Shown: one piece after another, positions 6,594 to 16,837 of the stretch
Position numbering within the stretch: position 1 is the first letter of the stretch
Layout: every line of letters begins with the position of its first letter
Source: a virus
DNA length: 22,712 nt
Virus record (IMG/VR): IMGVR_UViG_3300024262_000268
Coordinates: 1 to 22,712 of that record
Strand: one strand, 5' to 3'
Translations under genes and position numbers: made by a program
The notes under the pieces: generated by a model
What the model saw: the letters and a program-made list of their open reading frames with translations, nothing else
Told to the model about the DNA's origin: nothing
Database searches by the model: none

Positions 6594-9500
6594 ATGAGTA
6601 TTAAAAGAAGAAAACTGAGTAAAGGTATTAGGATTAAACCTAATGATACGGTTCTAGAGGCAGATGGGGAAATCACTGTAGATAGTGATATTCTAGGAGA
6701 GGAGAGCGAGCAAACTTTAAAAGTTAAGCTTAGTAACTCAGATAAGACTGTAATCACAAAAGATCAATCTCAAACACTAACAAACAAGTCAATAGATGCA
6801 GATACTAACACAATATCAAATATTGAAACTGACAACCTTAAAGCAGGAGTCTTAAACACTGATTTAAGCGGTGCAGCTACTGATACTGAGATACCATCAG
6901 CATTAGCAGTTAAAACGGCTCTAGCAGGTCAAAATGAAGCTTCTGAGATCAATTATGATAATAGCACTTCAGGACTTACAGCAACAGAAGTACAATCAGC
7001 AATAGATGAGGTAGAGGCGAGAACAGATGCTTCTGAAACAGCTTTATCAGATCACTTAGTAGACGCTGTAGACGCTCACGATGCATCAGCAATCTCTAAC
7101 GCACCAACTGGTAACTTACTAGCTACAGACGTTCAAGGAGCCTTAAATGAGCTTCAAACTGAAATAGATGAACTACCGGCTAAAACAGAAACACTTCAAA
7201 ATAAAACACTAGATTCAACAAACGTAATCTCCGGATCAATCGAAACTCCAGTAAGATCAGATGTAAAACAAGATACAGAAGCAAACTTAATTACTTATGC
7301 AGCAACAGCTTCAGACGGTCAATTATGTTTCGCAACAGATACTTTAAAAATGTACCAAGTTATATCAAACGCATTAGAGCCAGTAGGAGGCGGAGGATCA
7401 ACATCTTTCGAAATCACTCAAGCAGGTCATGGTCTTTCAGTAGGTGATGGTATATTACATAATGGAACAATTTATGTTCAAGCTCAAGCAAACGATCCAT
7501 CAACTCTTGCATATCATGTAGTAGTTGAAGTTATTGACGCTAACACTTTTGTAGCGGCAGACTTTGGAAGAATCGAAGTTACAGCTCACGGTTTCACAAT
7601 CGGAGAATACTATTTTCAATCAGAAGCAACAGCAGGATTACCAGTATCAACTGAGCCAGTTTCAGGATACTCAAATCCACTATTTTACGCTGAAGATGCA
7701 AACACTTTACAGATCAAATGTCTAAGACCTTCACCAATAGGTGATACGATAGCATTAGATGAAGTATCAGATGTTTCAGTACCTACTCCATTAGACGGAC
7801 AAGCATTAATTTATGATGTATCAAACCTAAGATGGGAAGCAAAAGATCTAGCAGGATCTACATATGTAATCACTCAAGCATCTCACGGATTTGCTGTAGG
7901 TGATGGTATCTTCCACAACGGAACTGACTATGAAAAAGCATTAGCAAATGATGCAGCGACTTTAGCATATTATGTAGTAGTAGCGATTGATGGAAATGAT
8001 TTCACAATGGCAGACATGACAAGAGTAGAAGCTCCATCTCACGGATATACTGTTGGAAGTTTTTACTGGCTATCAGATTCAGTATTAGGACAAGCAACAT
8101 TAGTTGAACCTTCTTCTGGATTCTCAAACCCATTATTTTATGTAGAAGATGCTAACACACTTCAAATTAAATGTTTAAGACCTGACGCAATTCAAGGAAT
8201 TAACTTAGACGACTTAGATAATGTTTCTGTAGCAGCACCAACAGACAAACAAGTATTAGCTTATAATAATGCAACTTCTACATGGGAAGCTCAAGATGCA
8301 GTTTCAGCAGCAGTAGACGTTACATACGATAATGCAACAAGTGGTCTCGCAGCATCAAATGTTCAAGCAGCAATTGATGAGGTAGTGGCAAATCCTGAGC
8401 TAGATAAATTAACAGACGTAACAATTACAGATAGAAAAGATGGTCAAGTATTAAAATATGATGAAGCTCAAGATCAAATGATTAACGCTCCTATCAAATT
8501 TAACATGCTTGCAAATCACGAAGATCTAACTCCGACTTTAGTAAGCGTAACAGCTACAAAAGACGCGGCAGTATTCCTACCAATTGATGTAAACACTCAA
8601 TCTATGAGAATTACATTTGCAGGATCTGCAGGATCATATTTACAAGAATCAGCTTTAAACTCTGAGCTAGACGGACTTCAAGGAGTTCTTAGAGCTTGGG
8701 TTAAAACGGATCAAGATAACGTACAAGTTTCAACTACAATTGATGGAGTAGTAGTTTCTAGCTTAACAGTATTATCTACTAATAAGTGGAAGCAATATCT
8801 AATTCCAGTTGTTATGAGTGGAACTAACATGGGTATTCAGATAAGCTCGGCTTCTGCTATAACAGGGGATGTTTACTTAGATCAGGTAGAGTTAGAATTA
8901 GACACAACGACTCAAGTAGTTTCACAGGCGCATTTTGTTGGTAGTTTAACCTACAGTGCAGCAAATTGTGTTTGGAGTAGAAATAATACTTCATGGGGTG
9001 ATTTTCCAGCAGATGCCGATTGTGTTGCTTCTAATGTTATTGGCGATGTATCAGAACCAGACACAAAAATACCAGCTATAAAAATAAATAATCCTCGAAC
9101 AGATGGATACTACACAGCTTCTTATCAGGGATTGCTATACTCCAATGTTTCTTCTTCGCACAGATTGTCATTAAGTTCTACCTCCGCATACGAAGATCAA
9201 GGGATGGTTTATGTTAATGATGCAGCAAACCAAGCTGTAAATCATGTTACAGGAAACTTTAGATTTTCTGATGCTACGCCCAAGGAAATTAGAGTTATAC
9301 ACTGGACTACTGGTGGTGCAGGAGCGGCAGAACTATATGCGCAACCCGATACAGGAGCTAAATTCACAGTTCACTTCTTCCCAGACTCTAAAAGCACAAT
9401 AGCAACTCAGAAAACAAGCTCACCAGATAAAGCAGGGTTTTTAACATTCTCATTTTTTGATACAGCGGTTGAAGGTCATCTTCCAGCAGACGGAAAATGC

Positions 9501-11132
9501 GTGAAAAAGATTTCATTCCCAGACTATACTAGAAACGTTGGAACTCTTTACGGAGAGTGTACAATAGATACTGCAAACGATGGTGTAAATTTACCAGACA
9601 TGAGAGGTTATTTTCCTCGTATGGTTGATACTACTAGTGAAGGAACGGCAGGGGTTAACCCAGATAATACTTTAATTGGTGGTAAACAAGCTGATGCTAC
9701 AGCGGCAAATGGATTGAGTATATCACCCAATGGAGATGCTTCTGGTGCTTATGGGAATAGAAATCTTACTGGTGGTGGGCTTGGGCCAGCTTTTAATGCT
9801 GGTGGTAATGGTATATATTTACACCCAGTAGTTTTAGGTATCAATGGAGATAATGAAACCAGACCCTCAGCAATCTCTCTAATGGCTTTTGTTAGAATGG
9901 AAGATAGAGATACTATAATAGGAAAGTTCGAGCAGATAGAAAACGTAACTGCGGATTTGACTGCTGCGACTGCGAATGAGTTTAGCATGAAAGTCAATAC
10001 GGTAGACGGTGTTGTAATATCTCAAAATTATGATTTTATAAACGGTAACTGTTCTATAGGTGGAACTGGAACTATTAATTGCTTATTTAACTCTGGTATA
10101 TTCAGTCAGGTGCCTAGCTGTTCTGCATCGGTTACAAATGCAGGAGTTAATTATAATGAGACAATAGACTTATTAACAACATCAGGTTTTACCATAAAAT
10201 CTTATCAAAATAGCGGATCTTCTTCACCTGCTCAAGTTGATATTCGCTGCTCCAAACAAGGCGCAGACGTAAACAAATCCTTCACAGGTGCAATCATTAA
10301 CGCATCAACAGCTCAAGCAGAAATCGTACAGGAAGTATTAAAGAATACTGCTAGTGATGATTTGTTGGTAATCAAGGGGCGAGGCAGCACAGGAGGCAGT
10401 ATTACTACTAATGTAACACCATATTCTTTTACAGAAATTGAAGATAACTATAATGCTTTTAATGGTACACAATTCACTGTACCTGCCTCTAAGCCATCAT
10501 CTTATTATAATATTTCTGGTCAAGTTGGTATGAATGTTAGTTACCAAAATATATCTCTATTCATAAATGGCTCTGAATTTATAATAAATGCTCAAAATAG
10601 TTTTACTTTAAAGGAGTTTAAATTCTTGGGAGTGAAATTAGTCGCAGGAGACATCGTAGAATTAAGAGGAAATGGAACAGGAACACAGTCTACTTTTGAC
10701 ACTGTAAATTACTTAACCATCCAAGAACTCCCAACAAAAGAAAGCATAGTAGCTAACCTAATAGAGACTCAGGTAACTAAATGTCAAACTAAGTATTTGA
10801 GTGCTAATAATACCAGTACAGGAAATATAGCTGACTTAACATTTAACAATTTAACTATAGGTCGTCGATACAGGGCTAGAGTTCAAGCGTACTTTGTAGC
10901 AGGTCAAGCAATAAATATCAGGCAAAATAACATTAGCATAAGTGAGGTATATGCTGCAACTGGCAATTATGTAGCACACAGTAGTACACCTTCATTTACC
11001 TCTACATCTACTACCCTAGAAACATTTCAACAAACAGTAAATATTTTATATGGGAACGGAACTATATCTCAAACATGGGTCGAACTTTGCGAACTACCAG
11101 AAACAGTAATAGAAACAACGGAGTTTGATTAA
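6594..11132 (+). CDS. Tail fibre 1, 1512 residues, with tail-collar domain
   Basis: The longest gene in the window encodes a modular fibre. Residues 1-110 carry the linker QSQTLTNKSIDADTNTISN and DNLKAG, and 119-200 contain repeats of the YDN...VQ.AI.E type. About 200-270 is the module shared with fibres 2 and 3 (RSDVKQDTEANL, GQLCFATDTLKMYQV). Residues 273-423 and 425-571 are a tandem duplication (VGDGI.HNG, SNPLFY.EDANTLQIKCLRP). About 665-790 is a carbohydrate-binding-like jelly roll (LRAWVKTD, VYLDQVELELD). About 948-1102 is a phage tail-collar domain, with NLPDMRGYFPRMVD and ETRPSAISLMAFVRMED as its recognisable ends. About 1250-1512 holds two C1q-like beta modules. The protein should be a trimeric receptor-binding or side fibre. 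It has no peptidase or lyase motif that I recognise. GGAG lies 7 bases before the start. Confidence 0.85.
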   Translation: MSIKRRKLSKGIRIKPNDTVLEADGEITVDSDILGEESEQTLKVKLSNSDKTVITKDQSQTLTNKSIDADTNTISNIETDNLKAGVLNTDLSGAATDTEIPSALAVKTALAGQNEASEINYDNSTSGLTATEVQSAIDEVEARTDASETALSDHLVDAVDAHDASAISNAPTGNLLATDVQGALNELQTEIDELPAKTETLQNKTLDSTNVISGSIETPVRSDVKQDTEANLITYAATASDGQLCFATDTLKMYQVISNALEPVGGGGSTSFEITQAGHGLSVGDGILHNGTIYVQAQANDPSTLAYHVVVEVIDANTFVAADFGRIEVTAHGFTIGEYYFQSEATAGLPVSTEPVSGYSNPLFYAEDANTLQIKCLRPSPIGDTIALDEVSDVSVPTPLDGQALIYDVSNLRWEAKDLAGSTYVITQASHGFAVGDGIFHNGTDYEKALANDAATLAYYVVVAIDGNDFTMADMTRVEAPSHGYTVGSFYWLSDSVLGQATLVEPSSGFSNPLFYVEDANTLQIKCLRPDAIQGINLDDLDNVSVAAPTDKQVLAYNNATSTWEAQDAVSAAVDVTYDNATSGLAASNVQAAIDEVVANPELDKLTDVTITDRKDGQVLKYDEAQDQMINAPIKFNMLANHEDLTPTLVSVTATKDAAVFLPIDVNTQSMRITFAGSAGSYLQESALNSELDGLQGVLRAWVKTDQDNVQVSTTIDGVVVSSLTVLSTNKWKQYLIPVVMSGTNMGIQISSASAITGDVYLDQVELELDTTTQVVSQAHFVGSLTYSAANCVWSRNNTSWGDFPADADCVASNVIGDVSEPDTKIPAIKINNPRTDGYYTASYQGLLYSNVSSSHRLSLSSTSAYEDQGMVYVNDAANQAVNHVTGNFRFSDATPKEIRVIHWTTGGAGAAELYAQPDTGAKFTVHFFPDSKSTIATQKTSSPDKAGFLTFSFFDTAVEGHLPADGKCVKKISFPDYTRNVGTLYGECTIDTANDGVNLPDMRGYFPRMVDTTSEGTAGVNPDNTLIGGKQADATAANGLSISPNGDASGAYGNRNLTGGGLGPAFNAGGNGIYLHPVVLGINGDNETRPSAISLMAFVRMEDRDTIIGKFEQIENVTADLTAATANEFSMKVNTVDGVVISQNYDFINGNCSIGGTGTINCLFNSGIFSQVPSCSASVTNAGVNYNETIDLLTTSGFTIKSYQNSGSSSPAQVDIRCSKQGADVNKSFTGAIINASTAQAEIVQEVLKNTASDDLLVIKGRGSTGGSITTNVTPYSFTEIEDNYNAFNGTQFTVPASKPSSYYNISGQVGMNVSYQNISLFINGSEFIINAQNSFTLKEFKFLGVKLVAGDIVELRGNGTGTQSTFDTVNYLTIQELPTKESIVANLIETQVTKCQTKYLSANNTSTGNIADLTFNNLTIGRRYRARVQAYFVAGQAINIRQNNISISEVYAATGNYVAHSSTPSFTSTSTTLETFQQTVNILYGNGTISQTWVELCELPETVIETTEFD
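7410..8310 (+). repeat. Tandem duplication of a roughly 150-residue fibre domain
   Basis: Residues 273-423 and 425-571 of fibre 1 are homologous. Shared landmarks include ITQA.HG, VGDGI, SNPLFY, EDANTLQIKCLRP and a Trp at 414 and 564. The DNA copies have diverged at synonymous sites, so the duplication is not recent. Confidence 0.8.
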
Positions 11133-11137
11133 AATAA

Positions 11138-11176
11138 GGGAGTGATCTTGACAGATCGCTCCTAATATGATACCCT
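11138..11176 (+). promoter_or_regulatory. Sigma70-type promoter with its -35 box in a hairpin loop (thioredoxin-like gene)
   Basis: GGGAGTGATC (11138-11147) pairs with GATCGCTCCT (11154-11163) around a 6-base loop that is exactly TTGACA (11148-11153). A 17-base spacer leads to TACCCT (11171-11176) preceded by TGA, giving an extended -10-like TGATACCCT; an alternative box is TATGAT at 11166. No T run follows, so the stem is not a typical terminator. It lies between fibre 1 and the thioredoxin-like gene, 18 bases before the latter's start. Confidence 0.5.
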
Positions 11177-11193
11177 TAAAATAAAGGACTATT

Positions 11194-11670
11194 ATGAAAG
11201 AATTAGAAGTAGAAAAGATTAGCAGCATCAAGGAAAACGAGAAAACAACCGTGATGCTTATTTGGCACGAACATTGCGGCATTTGCCAAGAGGTAAAGCC
11301 GAAGTTTGAGCAGATGAGTAAGAGTTTTGACATGGAATTCTTGACGCTACAATTAAATAATGAGAAGGTTTATGACTTTTACTCAGAGTTTACAGAGAAG
11401 GAAAAAGTAAAAAGTCCCTCATTTGATGAAGATGGGGACGCAATATTAGATGCACAGGGGAATCAGATAGAAAGATTCCACTTAGATGAAAATGGAGAGA
11501 TCATAGAAAAAGCTCCAATTCAAGTGCCAAAGTTCTTCGTATTTAACCAAGCAGGTGCAGACGAGGATAATGAGTTCGGATTTCTAGGTAAGGTAGATGG
11601 ATATAACGTGGAAATGTTAGAAAGCATCTTAACTACAATAGAAAAAGGAGAAATAGATGAGCAAGGTTAA
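11194..11670 (+). CDS. Thioredoxin-fold protein with CGIC active site
   Basis: This 158-residue protein begins with a beta strand (TTVMLIWHE) leading into HCGICQEVKP, with Cys28 and Cys31 at the position of the thioredoxin CxxC motif at the start of helix 1. The cis-proline loop is recognisable as QVPKFFVF with Pro112. Classical thioredoxins have WCGPC; here the Trp is displaced (Trp24) and the central pair is Gly-Ile, which would change redox potential or partner choice. An acidic insert of about 35 residues (about 68-105, including DEDGDAILDAQGN) lengthens the usual 105-residue fold. No signal peptide is present, so it acts in the cytoplasm. It has its own promoter-like sequence and overlaps the next gene by 14 bases. 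Possible roles are folding of cysteine-containing virion proteins or redox support of the neighbour; both are inference. Confidence 0.82.
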   Translation: MKELEVEKISSIKENEKTTVMLIWHEHCGICQEVKPKFEQMSKSFDMEFLTLQLNNEKVYDFYSEFTEKEKVKSPSFDEDGDAILDAQGNQIERFHLDENGEIIEKAPIQVPKFFVFNQAGADEDNEFGFLGKVDGYNVEMLESILTTIEKGEIDEQG

Positions 11671-11905
11671 AAGTGGGCTTAAAAGTCTCTTTAAAATAGC
11701 TGAAAACGCGGCAAAAGGTGTAGATCAGTCGGTTCCTGCTCAAGTAGCTGAAAGTAGGCAAAGTATATGTAATGCTTGCCCGAAAAGGATCGACCTACTA
11801 AACCAGTGTAAAGAATGTGGCTGTTTTTTAGCTGCTAAGACAAAAATAAAGCAAGAAAAGTGTCCTTTAGGTAAATGGGACGAGTATAAATCAACAACTA
11901 TATAA
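11657..11905 (+). CDS. Six-cysteine metal or Fe-S binding-like small protein
   Basis: This 82-residue protein overlaps the thioredoxin-like gene by 14 bases in another frame, so the two are probably co-translated. GGAG at 11648-11651 lies inside the upstream gene. Residues 1-35 are a basic then neutral helix. Residues 38-69 hold cysteines 38, 41, 51, 54, 56 and 69 in the pattern CxxC-x9-CxxCxC-x12-C, ending KCPLGKW. The same pattern (CNxC...CKxCGCF...CPxGKW) occurs in small proteins of many marine phages, where the role is unknown to me; it should bind zinc or an iron-sulphur cluster. Pairing with a thioredoxin-fold protein hints at a redox unit, but this is inference. The last codons overlap a putative promoter element. 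Confidence 0.78.
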   Translation: MSKVKSGLKSLFKIAENAAKGVDQSVPAQVAESRQSICNACPKRIDLLNQCKECGCFLAAKTKIKQEKCPLGKWDEYKSTTI

Positions 11906-11940: not shown

Positions 11941-13893
11941 ATGAGTTTTTCTAGTAACAAGGTAAAACCTAACAACATCAGTATAGACGGCTCTCAGACG
12001 GTCTCTAACAAGGTTTTAGACGCTTCTAACGACTTCTCAGGGGATATCATAGATCCTGCAAGATCAGACGTTAAAAAAGGCACACAGGCTGAATTAGAGA
12101 CATATGCGCTATCAGCAACAAACGGACAACTTTGCTTCGCTACAGATACTAAATTAATGTACCAAGTACTAGACTCAGCTCTAGTTTCAGTAGGTTCAGG
12201 TAGTGCGGCGATTAACTATATCGTTAACCCAGATTTAAACATTGACGAATCTGACATTACAGGAGATACGAACTTAGTAATCTCTCACGAAACAGTAGCT
12301 CCATTAAGAGGAGCAGGATCGCTTAAGATCTCAAAAGGTGCAATAGATGCTTCGACTCAATCGGTACTAATCGACATGAATCCAGTAGATACAGCAGACC
12401 TTGCTAAAAAACTTACAATCAGCTTTGATATCGATGCTTCAAACATAAACTATAAAGATGGCGATGCTCAAGTTAGAATCATAAAAGATCCTGCAGGAAC
12501 ACCAGAAACTATTAGAGTTAACGGTGAAGATATTAAAGGTGGTAAAAATACTCATATCGCTCAATTTCAGACGGATCATACAGAAGTAGATTACGCGCTA
12601 GAAATTTATTGGGCAGATACAGGAGTTCTAGCTACAGAGCTTATTCTTGATAACATACAGGTTGGTCCTAGAGAAGTCGTAAAAGGCGCAGCCATGACTG
12701 ATTGGAAAAGTTATGTTCCAGTGACTCAAGGAATAGGTACACCAGTTATTGATCATTGTCAGTATAGGCGAGTTGGGGATTCGGTTGAGATTAGTGCTAG
12801 ACTTACTACAGGTACATCTACAGCAGTAGAGTTCCAGTTTGGATTACCTAATAATCTTAAGGTAGATTCTAGTATAGGAGCTATAACTACTGTCGGTACA
12901 ATAGAAGCTAGTAATGGGAATGATTATATTCACACTATATTGATCACTGGAGGTGATTCTTATATTAATGTAGGGCTAAGACTTACAGGAGTAGATTCAA
13001 CTTATGTACCCCAGACAGGTTCAGGTCAATATGGTACAGGTAAGTTATTATCCTTCACAGCATCAGTACCAATCCAAGGTTGGTCAGCAAACGCTGTGTC
13101 GTCTGAGGATTTAGGTGGACGTGAGATTGTTGTTGAGGCGAGTAGTAATGGTGGTACAAGTATTACTGCTAATGTTACCAATATTGACTTTACAGAAACT
13201 AGAGATACAACAGGTAGCTTTGACGGTACAACTTTTATTGCACCAGAAACAGGTGACTATATTATATCAGGACAAGTTTATAGCACGGCTAGTAATGCTT
13301 CTAACTTATTGTCATATATAGATACTGTTAGAGATAAAGATGTAATGGTTAGTACGGTAAATACTAGGTACAAACCTTTCTCAACTACTTTTAGACTTAA
13401 TAAAGGTCAAACTTTTAGTATAAGAGGCGATGCTGCTTTTACTCTACAGACTAGCTCTACAGCTCACCATATATCTATAGTAAAACTAGCTTCACCTCAG
13501 ACAATACTTGAGACAGAGACAGTTGCAGCGAGTTATACTAGTAACAGTGGTGCAGTGGTTGCTAATGGTGCTAATATAATATATGAAGATATAGACTTTG
13601 ATACACATGGAGCTTACAACGTATCTACAGGAGATTATACTACTGCTGTCTCGGGCTATTATACCATAACTGCATCATGTTATGTTACTGTAGACAATGC
13701 ACAGCTAAGTATAAACATAGACGGTGTAGAAAAATCTGATGGGTACACAGTAGATAGAGACATTGCAAAAACTAGCTACATAGGATACATAGAAAAAGGT
13801 AAAGTGGTTAGTATTAAAAATACGCTTGGAGTAGCAAGAACCTTGGTTGCTGTAGGCAAGTATAGTTCATTTTCAATAGCGAGGATTAAGTAA
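11941..13893 (+). CDS. Tail fibre 2, 650 residues, C1q-like tip
   Basis: This fibre protein has the same N-terminal module as fibres 1 and 3. Residues 1-90 contain SQTVSNKVLDASNDFSGDI, RSDVKKGTQAELETYA and GQLCFATDTKLMYQVLD. About 95-245 is a jelly-roll, carbohydrate-binding-like domain (LRGAGSLKISKGAID, ATELILDNIQVGP). About 250-385 is a beta domain with YRRVGDSVEISARL and ending VPIQGWSAN, a segment often seen before fibre tips. Residues about 390-510 and 525-650 are two C1q-like beta sandwiches (FTETRDTTGSFDGTTFIAPE, TGDYIISGQV; and SGYYTITASCYV). It is likely a trimeric receptor-binding fibre. The start follows ACAAAGGA, the same ribosome site context as fibre 3 and the capsid gene. The stop overlaps the next start as TAATG. 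Confidence 0.82.
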   Translation: MSFSSNKVKPNNISIDGSQTVSNKVLDASNDFSGDIIDPARSDVKKGTQAELETYALSATNGQLCFATDTKLMYQVLDSALVSVGSGSAAINYIVNPDLNIDESDITGDTNLVISHETVAPLRGAGSLKISKGAIDASTQSVLIDMNPVDTADLAKKLTISFDIDASNINYKDGDAQVRIIKDPAGTPETIRVNGEDIKGGKNTHIAQFQTDHTEVDYALEIYWADTGVLATELILDNIQVGPREVVKGAAMTDWKSYVPVTQGIGTPVIDHCQYRRVGDSVEISARLTTGTSTAVEFQFGLPNNLKVDSSIGAITTVGTIEASNGNDYIHTILITGGDSYINVGLRLTGVDSTYVPQTGSGQYGTGKLLSFTASVPIQGWSANAVSSEDLGGREIVVEASSNGGTSITANVTNIDFTETRDTTGSFDGTTFIAPETGDYIISGQVYSTASNASNLLSYIDTVRDKDVMVSTVNTRYKPFSTTFRLNKGQTFSIRGDAAFTLQTSSTAHHISIVKLASPQTILETETVAASYTSNSGAVVANGANIIYEDIDFDTHGAYNVSTGDYTTAVSGYYTITASCYVTVDNAQLSINIDGVEKSDGYTVDRDIAKTSYIGYIEKGKVVSIKNTLGVARTLVAVGKYSSFSIARIK

Positions 13894-14298: not shown

Positions 14299-16338
14299 AT
14301 GGGATTTTCAAGTGGCGGTATTAGCCCGAACAACGTGGACTTAGATAGCTCTCAGACGCTACAAAATAAGACTCTCGATGCTTCAAATGATTACTCAGGG
14401 GATATTATTAACCCAAGTAGAAGCGACGTTAAACAGGACACTCAGGCTAATCTAGAGCTATATGCATCAGGAGCAGCTAACGGTCAAATGTGCTTCGCTA
14501 CAGATACTAAGCAGATGTATCAAGTTTTAGACGGTGCATTAGCTCCAGTAGGCGGAGGATCAGGAGGATTAGATACATTCTTCACAGATACTTTCGAAAT
14601 AGCAGGAGTTGACGACTATACTTCAGGTAATGACGCAGCTTTCGATAATGGTGGAGTTCTAGCAGGAGCTTTAGCTGTAGAAGCAGTTAATAACATTTCT
14701 GGTGATCAATCACTAAAATATACGCAAGCAGCAGGATCTTTAAATGATTTCATAAAGTCGCCGCTTATTCCAATTGATAAGAAGCAACAAGGAAATACTG
14801 TAGGACTCGAACTTTACTACACATATAATGGTAATGATGGGGATCTAAGAATCGTAGGATATGACGATACAGGATCAGAAGTTATGACAATAGCTTCAAA
14901 CACTTTACGAGCAGCTTCAAAGGCTCAAAGATTCTCAGTGCAGTTTCCAGTACCAAGTGGTAGTGCTAACTTAGCATGGGGAATTCAAGTAGGTGTAGAA
15001 AATGATGGTGCAATCTTAGTTATTGATGATGTTCAGATGAGTACTAATCCTTTTGTAAGTAAAGATGTTCAAGATGAGAATAATTTTAGTGCTAGAATTA
15101 CTAATAATGGTACAGCAGCTATAGATTCTCAAGGTGGTTTAGATAGTAGTGGAAATAATGCTATAGCAAGCGTTAGTAGAAGTTCTCTAGGTACTGTGTC
15201 AATAACTTTAACTAGTGGCTTTTTCTCTATAGCTCCTGTTGTTGTATTGGGATCTGAAGATAATACAACAACAACTAGTCTATCTGCTTTTGTTGATTCC
15301 GTTACTACTTCTACTATAGTAATTAAGACCGGAAATGACTCTGTTACTTTAGCTGATAGAGATTTTAATATCTTAATTTCTAGACAAGGTTCAGACTACA
15401 GACAGCCTTCAGAACACATCGTAGCATACAACGCTCGTAACGCAGAAAACAGCATGATAAGACTTCATACTGGTAACGGTCATGGTAGTATCAATAATAA
15501 GATTCGCCGCTTCTCAACTGAAGTAGCTAACTTAGGAAATGCTATTACATATGCTGATAGTGCAACTGATGGGGCTAGTTTTACGATTAATGAAGATGGT
15601 GTTTATATGGTGAGTTCTACAGATGTTAGGTCTAACAATACTACTCCAGTTGGGATAAGTTTAAATAGTACAGAATTAATAACATCTATTCAATCAATTA
15701 ATTCATCAGATAGATTAAACATGATGGACACAGTAGCTACCGGAGGATTTAGAGGAACAGCTTCTTGGTCAGGTATATTGACTAAAGGTGATATTATCAG
15801 ACCTCACGGTGATGGCGGAGCTGATGGTACTACTATATCAACCTTCACAATCTCTAAAATAGGAGTTGGAGATCTTCTCGGAGTCCCTACACCTCGCACA
15901 GCTTATATCAAGGATGTTAAATCAAGTGGTACAGCAGGTGGTACTTTTACAGCCGGAGCTTGGCAAACTAGGGACTTAAATACGCTAGAAGGTGATACTG
16001 AGTTTGTAAGTTTGAGTAGTAATCAGGTAACTTTATCCCCGGGTAAATATGAGATAGAGGCTTCTGCTCCTGCTTTTATAGTAAATTACCATAAACTAAA
16101 ACTTAGAGATATTACGAACTCAGCAGATGCTATCATAGGACAATCGAGATATTGTGATCAGGGTAACATAGTGGAAAATTTAGCAAATCTTGAAAGTACT
16201 ATAGAGATAACATCTTCTATAACTTTTGAGATACAGCATAGATGCAGTACGACAAAAGCAGGTGACGGGTTCGGAATTGCATCAAGTTTCGGAGTAGATG
16301 AGATTTATACTACATTGAAAATTAAAAAGGTAAGCTAG
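14299..16338 (+). CDS. Tail fibre 3, 679 residues
   Basis: The N-terminal 90 residues (SQTLQNKTLDASNDYSGDI, RSDVKQDTQANLELYA, GQMCFATDTKQMYQVLD) match fibres 1 and 2. About 97-255 is a jelly-roll, lectin-like domain (FDNGGVLAGALAVEAV, AILVIDDVQMS). About 262-370 is a beta module (SLGTVSITLTSGFFSIAPVV), then HIVAYNARNAENSMIRLH leads into a C1q-like sandwich (about 385-520, FTINEDGVYMVSS). About 528-679 is a second C1q-like tip carrying TAGAWQTRDLNTLEGD-type residues (TAGAWQTRDLNTLEGDTEF) and LSPGKYEIEASAPAF, a widespread fibre tip in environmental phages. It should be a receptor-binding fibre with a different tip from fibre 2. The start follows ACAAAGGA. The next gene starts one base after the stop codon. 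Confidence 0.83.
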   Translation: MGFSSGGISPNNVDLDSSQTLQNKTLDASNDYSGDIINPSRSDVKQDTQANLELYASGAANGQMCFATDTKQMYQVLDGALAPVGGGSGGLDTFFTDTFEIAGVDDYTSGNDAAFDNGGVLAGALAVEAVNNISGDQSLKYTQAAGSLNDFIKSPLIPIDKKQQGNTVGLELYYTYNGNDGDLRIVGYDDTGSEVMTIASNTLRAASKAQRFSVQFPVPSGSANLAWGIQVGVENDGAILVIDDVQMSTNPFVSKDVQDENNFSARITNNGTAAIDSQGGLDSSGNNAIASVSRSSLGTVSITLTSGFFSIAPVVVLGSEDNTTTTSLSAFVDSVTTSTIVIKTGNDSVTLADRDFNILISRQGSDYRQPSEHIVAYNARNAENSMIRLHTGNGHGSINNKIRRFSTEVANLGNAITYADSATDGASFTINEDGVYMVSSTDVRSNNTTPVGISLNSTELITSIQSINSSDRLNMMDTVATGGFRGTASWSGILTKGDIIRPHGDGGADGTTISTFTISKIGVGDLLGVPTPRTAYIKDVKSSGTAGGTFTAGAWQTRDLNTLEGDTEFVSLSSNQVTLSPGKYEIEASAPAFIVNYHKLKLRDITNSADAIIGQSRYCDQGNIVENLANLESTIEITSSITFEIQHRCSTTKAGDGFGIASSFGVDEIYTTLKIKKVS

Positions 16339-16339
16339 A

Positions 16340-16837
16340 TTGAAAGAGTTAACGCCGCAACAAATTCAAGAGAAACCACAGTTAGAGTCGCGATTAGCGG
16401 CTCTACAAGATCGTAATCTAGTTGCTTCGGAGTTAAAGATTAGCAACCTTTTACTTCACTTCAATAACAACATCGTAGCAAATGATGATAGAGAAGAAGC
16501 AGAAAGATTAATGACTCAACTAGAAGAAGTAGATGAGGCGCAAAAAGATTTGAGGCTGAAGTTCAAGCTAGAAGATATAAGAAGACAGCGAGATAGAATT
16601 CTTGCGGCTACAGATTGGCTCTTCATATCAGATGTTCCGACCCCTCAAAAAGCAAGAAAGATATACATGGAATATCGCCAGTATTTAAGGAACATTACTA
16701 GCGACATGAAAAGAAGTCCAGATACAGTAAAAATAGAAGACTTCGAGCATTTTTTAAGAAGAAAGCATCCTGAAGAGTTTATGGATGGTGGAGATAATGA
16801 AGTAATTATACATAGATTTACATATTACTACAAATAG
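16340..16837 (+). CDS. Phage tail/fibre assembly chaperone-like protein
   Basis: This 165-residue helical protein begins at TTG 16340, with AAAAAGG about 9 bases upstream and only one base between it and the fibre 3 stop. The first 80 residues are coiled-coil-like and charged (LESRLAALQDRNLVASEL). Residues about 89-122 read RRQRDRILAATDWLFISDVP then YMEYRQYLRNI, the signature of the phage tail assembly chaperone family (Arg-Asp-Arg-x-Leu, DW, D-x-P, YRxxLR), in which small proteins encoded next to tail fibre genes help the fibres fold or trimerise. The position directly after a fibre gene agrees. The C-terminal 40 residues are unfamiliar. A non-ATG start and near-overlap suggest coupling to fibre 3 translation. 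Confidence 0.78.
   Translation: MKELTPQQIQEKPQLESRLAALQDRNLVASELKISNLLLHFNNNIVANDDREEAERLMTQLEEVDEAQKDLRLKFKLEDIRRQRDRILAATDWLFISDVPTPQKARKIYMEYRQYLRNITSDMKRSPDTVKIEDFEHFLRRKHPEEFMDGGDNEVIIHRFTYYYK

Follow-up and report, generated by a model that had tools for sequence, protein, structure and literature searches.

DUF6171 (PF19668), or phrog_13558, is catalogued in Pfam and PHROGs without an assigned function, and a literature search found no paper naming it; zinc ribbons such as those of bL32 and RPB12 have a CxxC...CxxC knuckle in common with it. Thioredoxin, TrbB, StoA and DsbE are united by the thioredoxin fold, a CxxC active site and a cis-proline, and TrbB serves the assembly of an extracellular appendage, the F-type pili. 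In tail-fibre assembly, chaperones of the Tfa, T4 gp38 or gp57A type are small proteins encoded directly downstream of a fibre gene, and the T4-type gp38 adhesins sit on gp37. To our knowledge, the building of cysteine-rich, probably cross-linked receptor-binding proteins by phages in the reducing cytosol has been little studied, and our literature search turned up no relevant work on thioredoxin or disulphide systems that phages would use for their fibres. Here, we describe a locus in which a thioredoxin-fold gene and a DUF6171 gene lie directly after a cysteine-rich fibre gene.

Layout of the locus and its two proteins

The DNA analysed is a whole virus record of 22,712 bases (hereafter, the window), in which a truncated terminase large subunit gene is followed by portal and capsid genes and then by several fibre genes. 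The gene pair is flanked by two of these fibre genes (6594-11132 and 11941-13893), and the features discussed below are as follows.

6594..11132, + strand: tail-fibre gene (1512 aa) directly upstream of the pair, with 13 cysteines; the proposed client
9984..10308, + strand: cysteine-bearing domain of this fibre, residues about 1131-1238 (..NC..INC..GIFSQVPSC..IRCSKQGADVNKSF)
11138..11163, + strand: strong hairpin 3' of the fibre gene, 11 pairs, z -5.6, no T tract, holding TTGACA
11183..11188, + strand: Shine-Dalgarno sequence AAAGGA of the thioredoxin-like gene, read from the sequence
11194..11670, + strand: thioredoxin-fold gene, ORF of 158 aa with CGIC (C28-G-I-C31)
11645..11650, + strand: Shine-Dalgarno sequence AAGGAG of the DUF6171 gene, within the thioredoxin-like gene, read from the sequence
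11657..11905, + strand: DUF6171 / phrog_13558 gene, 82 aa, C38xxC41-x9-C51xxC54-x-C56-x12-C69, zinc-ribbon-like
11657..11670, + strand: overlap of the two genes, 14 bases, of equal length in L116, S-IOM18 and L209-L211
11941-13893: fibre gene downstream of the pair, from the ORF list
14299..16338, + strand: third fibre gene, with a cysteine-less paralogue of the domain; internal control
16340-16837: tail assembly chaperone gene (PF16778), separate from the pair

We re-derived the ORFs, the CGIC motif, the six-cysteine pattern and the 14-base overlap, and the positions and motifs that the initial annotation had assigned to both genes proved correct.

The thioredoxin-like ORF matches Pfam Thioredoxin (PF00085) at 24.7 bits (cut-off 23.5) and has sequence similarity to solved thioredoxins, and its predicted structure (AF2, mean pLDDT 88) returns 17 PDB matches at E < 1e-3, with thioredoxins at the top. 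With an active site at C28 and C31 and P112 at the cis-proline position, it has the CxxC, the cis-proline and the fold of the superfamily. It differs from thioredoxin, TrbB, StoA and DsbE, however, in having no CGPC, no evident signal peptide and an additional beta insertion, about 35 residues long (about 66-111), preceding P112. Neither of two curated subfamilies accommodates it: the active site reads HCGIC instead of the WCGPC of TrxA, whose equivalog model gives 28.4 bits (cut-off 96.8), and the TrbB equivalog score is 19.6 against 132 bits. Similarity to TrbB, the pilus-assembly thiol isomerase, and to StoA is weak and lies far below curated cut-offs, and a tblastn search with the protein against named phages gave no match.

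The six-cysteine ORF belongs to DUF6171 both by score (28.3 bits against a cut-off of 27; phrog_13558 at E 3.8e-18) and by its CxxC..CxxCGC..CP..W pattern, and has no evident leader peptide; a search of the virus's own record matched the family as well. None of the six cysteines varies in alignments of 12 and of 34 relatives, the larger of which also keeps R34, G55, K61, P70 and W74 throughout, with C51, C54, G55 and C56 forced by the search pattern itself. The core of the protein is predicted with pLDDT > 90, and a Foldseek search with the model found no similar solved fold in the PDB, the only matches being family members from other phages. Its resemblance to structurally known zinc ribbons, including profile similarity to bL32 and RPB12, stays below threshold, and DUF6171 has six invariant cysteines rather than their four; the cysteine pattern together with this sub-threshold similarity makes it a probable zinc protein. 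Two other assignments were rejected. For a bacterial origin, there was one match to the pattern we used in 84,980 genomes, on an 8-kb Pirellulales contig where it adjoins a 38-cysteine protein, so that bacterial neighbourhoods were uninformative; for an anti-phage defence or counter-defence family, PADLOC had no match for the pair.

We also made two observations on the virus itself. The fibres at 6594-11132, 11941-13893 and 14299-16338 have in common a repeated N-terminal module of about 70-110 aa that is 50-65% identical between them (...DVKQDTxANLxxYAxxAxDGQLCFATDT...) and is probably a common attachment domain. The nearest named-phage relative of the portal (811-2916) comes from a phage of Silvanigrella aquatica at 28% identity, hinting at a Bdellovibrionota-type host.

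Recurrence and expression of the gene pair

The closest relative of the window, a 74-kb contig (L116), is collinear with it from terminase through fibres and has both genes of the pair, again overlapping by 14 bases. Within the structural module of this lineage, DUF6171 is conserved most strongly, at 70.5% identity, compared with 57.7% for the portal, 53.8% for the terminase (TerL), 50.2% for the capsid protein (MCP) and 46.8% for the thioredoxin, and the pair is therefore not a dispensable curiosity there. Four further loci (L032, L033, L034 and L077) were found through DUF6171 similarity alone, each with a thioredoxin gene directly upstream, and a second, very divergent type of thioredoxin lies directly before DUF6171 in the cyanophages QB2, S-M1, S-IOM18 and WH25-B as well as in L059. 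Searching from the thioredoxin side gave the same arrangement: for the cyanophage type, DUF6171 follows directly downstream in 5/5 named phage records and in all three new IMG/VR contigs (L209-L211), and for the window type the searches led only to contigs already identified, all of which have the thioredoxin beside DUF6171. The Pfam Thioredoxin model has a single match per record, at the DUF6171 neighbour, in six of seven records, L059 being unmatched by the model. Since L116 and loci of the T4-like cyanophage type (S-IOM18 and L209-L211) show the pairing as well as the 14-base overlap, the pairing is not due to chance; it is real and recurs in divergent lineages, T4-like cyanophages among them.

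Co-occurrence of the two families, on which the initial annotation had staked its reading, holds in one direction. Every thioredoxin relative found adjoins DUF6171, while DUF6171 is the wider family, a thioredoxin neighbour being absent from most of the roughly 60 non-redundant loci; DUF6171 therefore does not need the thioredoxin. The association is thus asymmetric, the thioredoxin going with DUF6171 and not the reverse, and the families are not mutually dependent. S-SSM7 and Sf-FS3 have genes close to DUF6171 that are annotated as "peroxyredoxin" and as a "thioredoxin domain" protein; these match Redoxin, not the window subfamily, and were left out of these counts.

These data bear on the possibility that the thioredoxin is a plain redox auxiliary for nucleotide reduction or oxidative stress, and that the small zinc protein beside it is unrelated. 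Auxiliary genes commonly include thioredoxins, and the Redoxin-family genes of S-SSM7 and Sf-FS3 would suit such a role, but the active sites of the relatives (CEFC, CQHC, CHHC, CPAC, CPVC, CPTC and CPQC) are never CGPC, the family has so far been found only beside DUF6171, and its location within the fibre cluster is retained. We regard this explanation as very unlikely.

The pair had also been credited with its own sigma70 promoter and, on the strength of the overlap, with tied expression. In the window, TTGACA (11148-11153) spans the loop of the hairpin and is separated from TATGAT (11166-11171) by a spacer of 12 bases, a position and spacing that speak against a -35 box, and a consensus promoter scan of the window gave a single formal match, scoring 9 of 12, which overlaps the start codon. 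Of four relatives, three (L116, L113 and L115) do have sigma70-type sites scoring 11 of 12, with spacers of 17-18 bases, ahead of the pair, and the promoter scan found none there in L114. A promoter of its own is accordingly plausible for the pair family and unsupported for the window copy. As for tied expression, the DUF6171 gene has its own Shine-Dalgarno sequence, so that coupling through the overlap is possible but not required.

Promoters of this quality would suit expression apart from the late genes, as would be expected of a moron-like pair directed at the host, with the thioredoxin acting on host redox partners, the zinc-ribbon protein acting on host transcription or another target, and the fibre region serving as a mere insertion site. 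The weak similarity of DUF6171 to RPB12-type zinc ribbons, and the annotation of DUF6171 as RNA polymerase-like in some records, point the same way. The window, however, has neither a well-spaced promoter nor, by our scan, a terminator after the pair, and the conserved place and strong sequence conservation of the pair, as well as a cysteine excess specific to the gene directly upstream (see below), argue against a host-directed function, which we consider quite unlikely. Foreign base composition, as in an imported moron, was rejected: the GC content of the pair (about 0.36-0.39) equals that of its neighbours.

Our analysis also revealed a range of other genes around DUF6171. Flavin-dependent halogenase genes adjoin DUF6171 and fibre genes in unrelated phages (L059 4182-5597 and 5806-7287, the second copy judged by eye; L011 4279-5736), the L059 locus also having a thioredoxin, and are possibly further adhesin-modifying enzymes. 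Genes for 2OG-Fe(II) oxygenases cluster around DUF6171 in cyanophages (L022, L024, L025 and L030), those of Sf-FS3 and L030 being of the prolyl-hydroxylase type; L210 4606-5268 was called an oxygenase from an HxD-like motif spotted by eye. In the small phages of the L035-L091 group, proteins of 112-129 aa that start with MSVCSPCFDSG and contain about 8 cysteines overlap the start of DUF6171 (e.g., L045 3660-4004, a member without a Pfam match). Finally, structural proteins upstream of DUF6171 in L147, L168 and L170 contain putative cysteine-rich repeats resembling eukaryotic thrombospondin type-1 repeats (CTASCGSWTYTYGAWSDWGTCS...).

Cysteine content of the gene upstream of DUF6171

The fibre gene directly upstream of the pair in the window encodes 13 cysteines, compared with 3, 3, 0 and 0 in the later fibre genes. 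Its counterparts in other paired loci are likewise cysteine-rich: 7 cysteines in 455 aa in L116; 10 in 577 aa in L113, where the preceding fibres have 0 and 1; 12 in 612 aa in L114, where the preceding one has 2 in 1042; 13 in 418 aa in L115; and 8 in 313 aa in L209, where the preceding fibres have 1, 0 and 1. In all seven thioredoxin loci tested, the upstream fibre exceeds the locus mean.

We then asked the same of DUF6171 loci at large, comparing genes of at least 200 aa with the other genes of the same locus. The nearest upstream gene of DUF6171 lies above the locus-mean cysteine content in 38 of 46 non-redundant loci (Wilcoxon p = 8e-8), the remaining 8 running counter to the trend, and in 14/15 after clustering at 50% identity (p = 1.2e-4); these p-values ignore residual relatedness, and since ORFs were called mechanically, single cases may be wrong. 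Neither the second upstream gene (12/41) nor the nearest downstream gene (16/38) is cysteine-enriched in the same test. Because the idea was formed on thioredoxin-paired loci, these neighbouring genes served as controls, and a re-test was confined to thioredoxin-free loci. In the latter the upstream gene is enriched in 33 of 41 (p = 1.2e-6), the medians are 2.1 against 0.8 cysteines per 100 residues, and among the 19 residues tested none is more distinctive than cysteine. The rest of the compositional shift in the upstream gene (less Glu, Lys and Met; more Ser) resembles that of fibre proteins.

In the window, L116, L113, L114 and L115, the fibre upstream of the pair ends in, or has within it, a related cysteine-bearing domain; the window domain is homologous to the C-terminal domains of the other four, and a profile built from L113-L115 alone matches the L116 fibre (E 4e-7). 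The cysteines of ...FSxxPSC... and the later ...C[SM][KG]... are clear in the window, L116, L113 and L114, and weaker in L115. With about 39% identity between them, the window and L116 share each of the six C-terminal fibre cysteines. The third window fibre (14299-16338) provides an internal control: its paralogue of the domain has other residues in place of the cysteines (GFFSIAPVVV ... ILISRQG); the cysteines therefore go with the domain copy beside the redox pair. A tblastn search with the domain against named phages gave no match.

The initial annotation had suggested that the pair could handle thiol or metal chemistry of virion proteins, or act on the host. The selective cysteine richness of the gene directly upstream of DUF6171 lends strong support to the first part of an interpretation which, taken whole, is partly borne out. 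The statistical link between DUF6171 and cysteine-rich fibres is new here, and is the part of this work most likely to last.

A candidate maturation module for cysteine-bearing fibres

As the pair recurs directly after the one cysteine-rich tail-fibre gene, it probably helps that fibre, itself probably a receptor-binding protein, to fold or mature. More specifically, the sequence evidence suggests that the two genes may form a module dedicated to maturing the cysteine-bearing fibre encoded just upstream through thiol and metal chemistry, a reading to which we give an even chance. Its basis is the pairing, the place after a cysteine-rich fibre, the thioredoxin fold, the six invariant cysteines and the lack of evident leaders on either protein. 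In such a module, DUF6171, as a small protein of the zinc-ribbon type, would engage the fibre cysteine domain in the host cytosol, and would shield or metal-load the fibre thiols up to the point of trimerisation. The thioredoxin-like enzyme, which some lineages have and others lack, and whose active sites are other than CGPC (CGIC, CEFC, CQHC, CHHC and CPxC), would make, break or reshuffle disulphides in the fibre or in DUF6171, and may reset DUF6171. The chemistry on the fibre cysteines could be of either kind, disulphide or metal. The strong conservation of DUF6171 and the weak similarity of the enzyme to TrbB and StoA speak for such a module; the DUF6171 genes lying away from fibres, the 8 loci that defy the cysteine trend, the promoters of the three relatives and the many loci lacking a thioredoxin speak against it.

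The module would thereby act like a tail-fibre-assembly chaperone plus a thiol-disulphide isomerase, resembling by function a Tfa chaperone joined to a TrbB-type isomerase but by sequence neither. Compared with known Tfa families, the pair has no match in Pfam or PHROGs; it would use cysteine chemistry, unlike the Tfa-type chaperones, and the window has its tail assembly chaperone gene elsewhere.

The same position directly after a fibre or adhesin gene, like that of gp38, could instead indicate that DUF6171 belongs to the virion, as a metal-stapled cap or adaptor that remains bound to the tip of the cysteine-rich fibre, with the thioredoxin only keeping the cysteines of DUF6171 reduced before assembly. 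The very high conservation of DUF6171 and its small size, with an invariant C-terminal CPxxxW, are consistent with a structural part of this kind. DUF6171 is, however, conserved to a far greater degree than the fibres it would cap, which are variable, and in some phages it lies away from fibres, its genes in Stenotrophomonas, Rhizobium and Acidovorax phages having no adjoining fibre. We therefore regard a cap as unlikely, and return to the maturation of the upstream fibre as the preferred reading.

Extended to the family, this reading would describe a phage-run cytosolic cysteine-maturation pathway for tail adhesins, in which DUF6171 serves as a metal or thiol chaperone specific to fibres across many tailed-phage lineages, some of which have recruited a thioredoxin-fold oxidase or isomerase; we put this forward tentatively, as a possibility that is still doubtful. 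If true, it would amount to a virus-encoded folding system by which disulphide- or metal-stapled receptor-binding proteins are made in the reducing cytosol, and the dedicated enzyme and metal protein would serve as a co-expression aid for producing cysteine-rich adhesins. The widespread family DUF6171 / phrog_13558 would gain a concrete, testable role together with a likely client, the cysteine-bearing tail adhesin.
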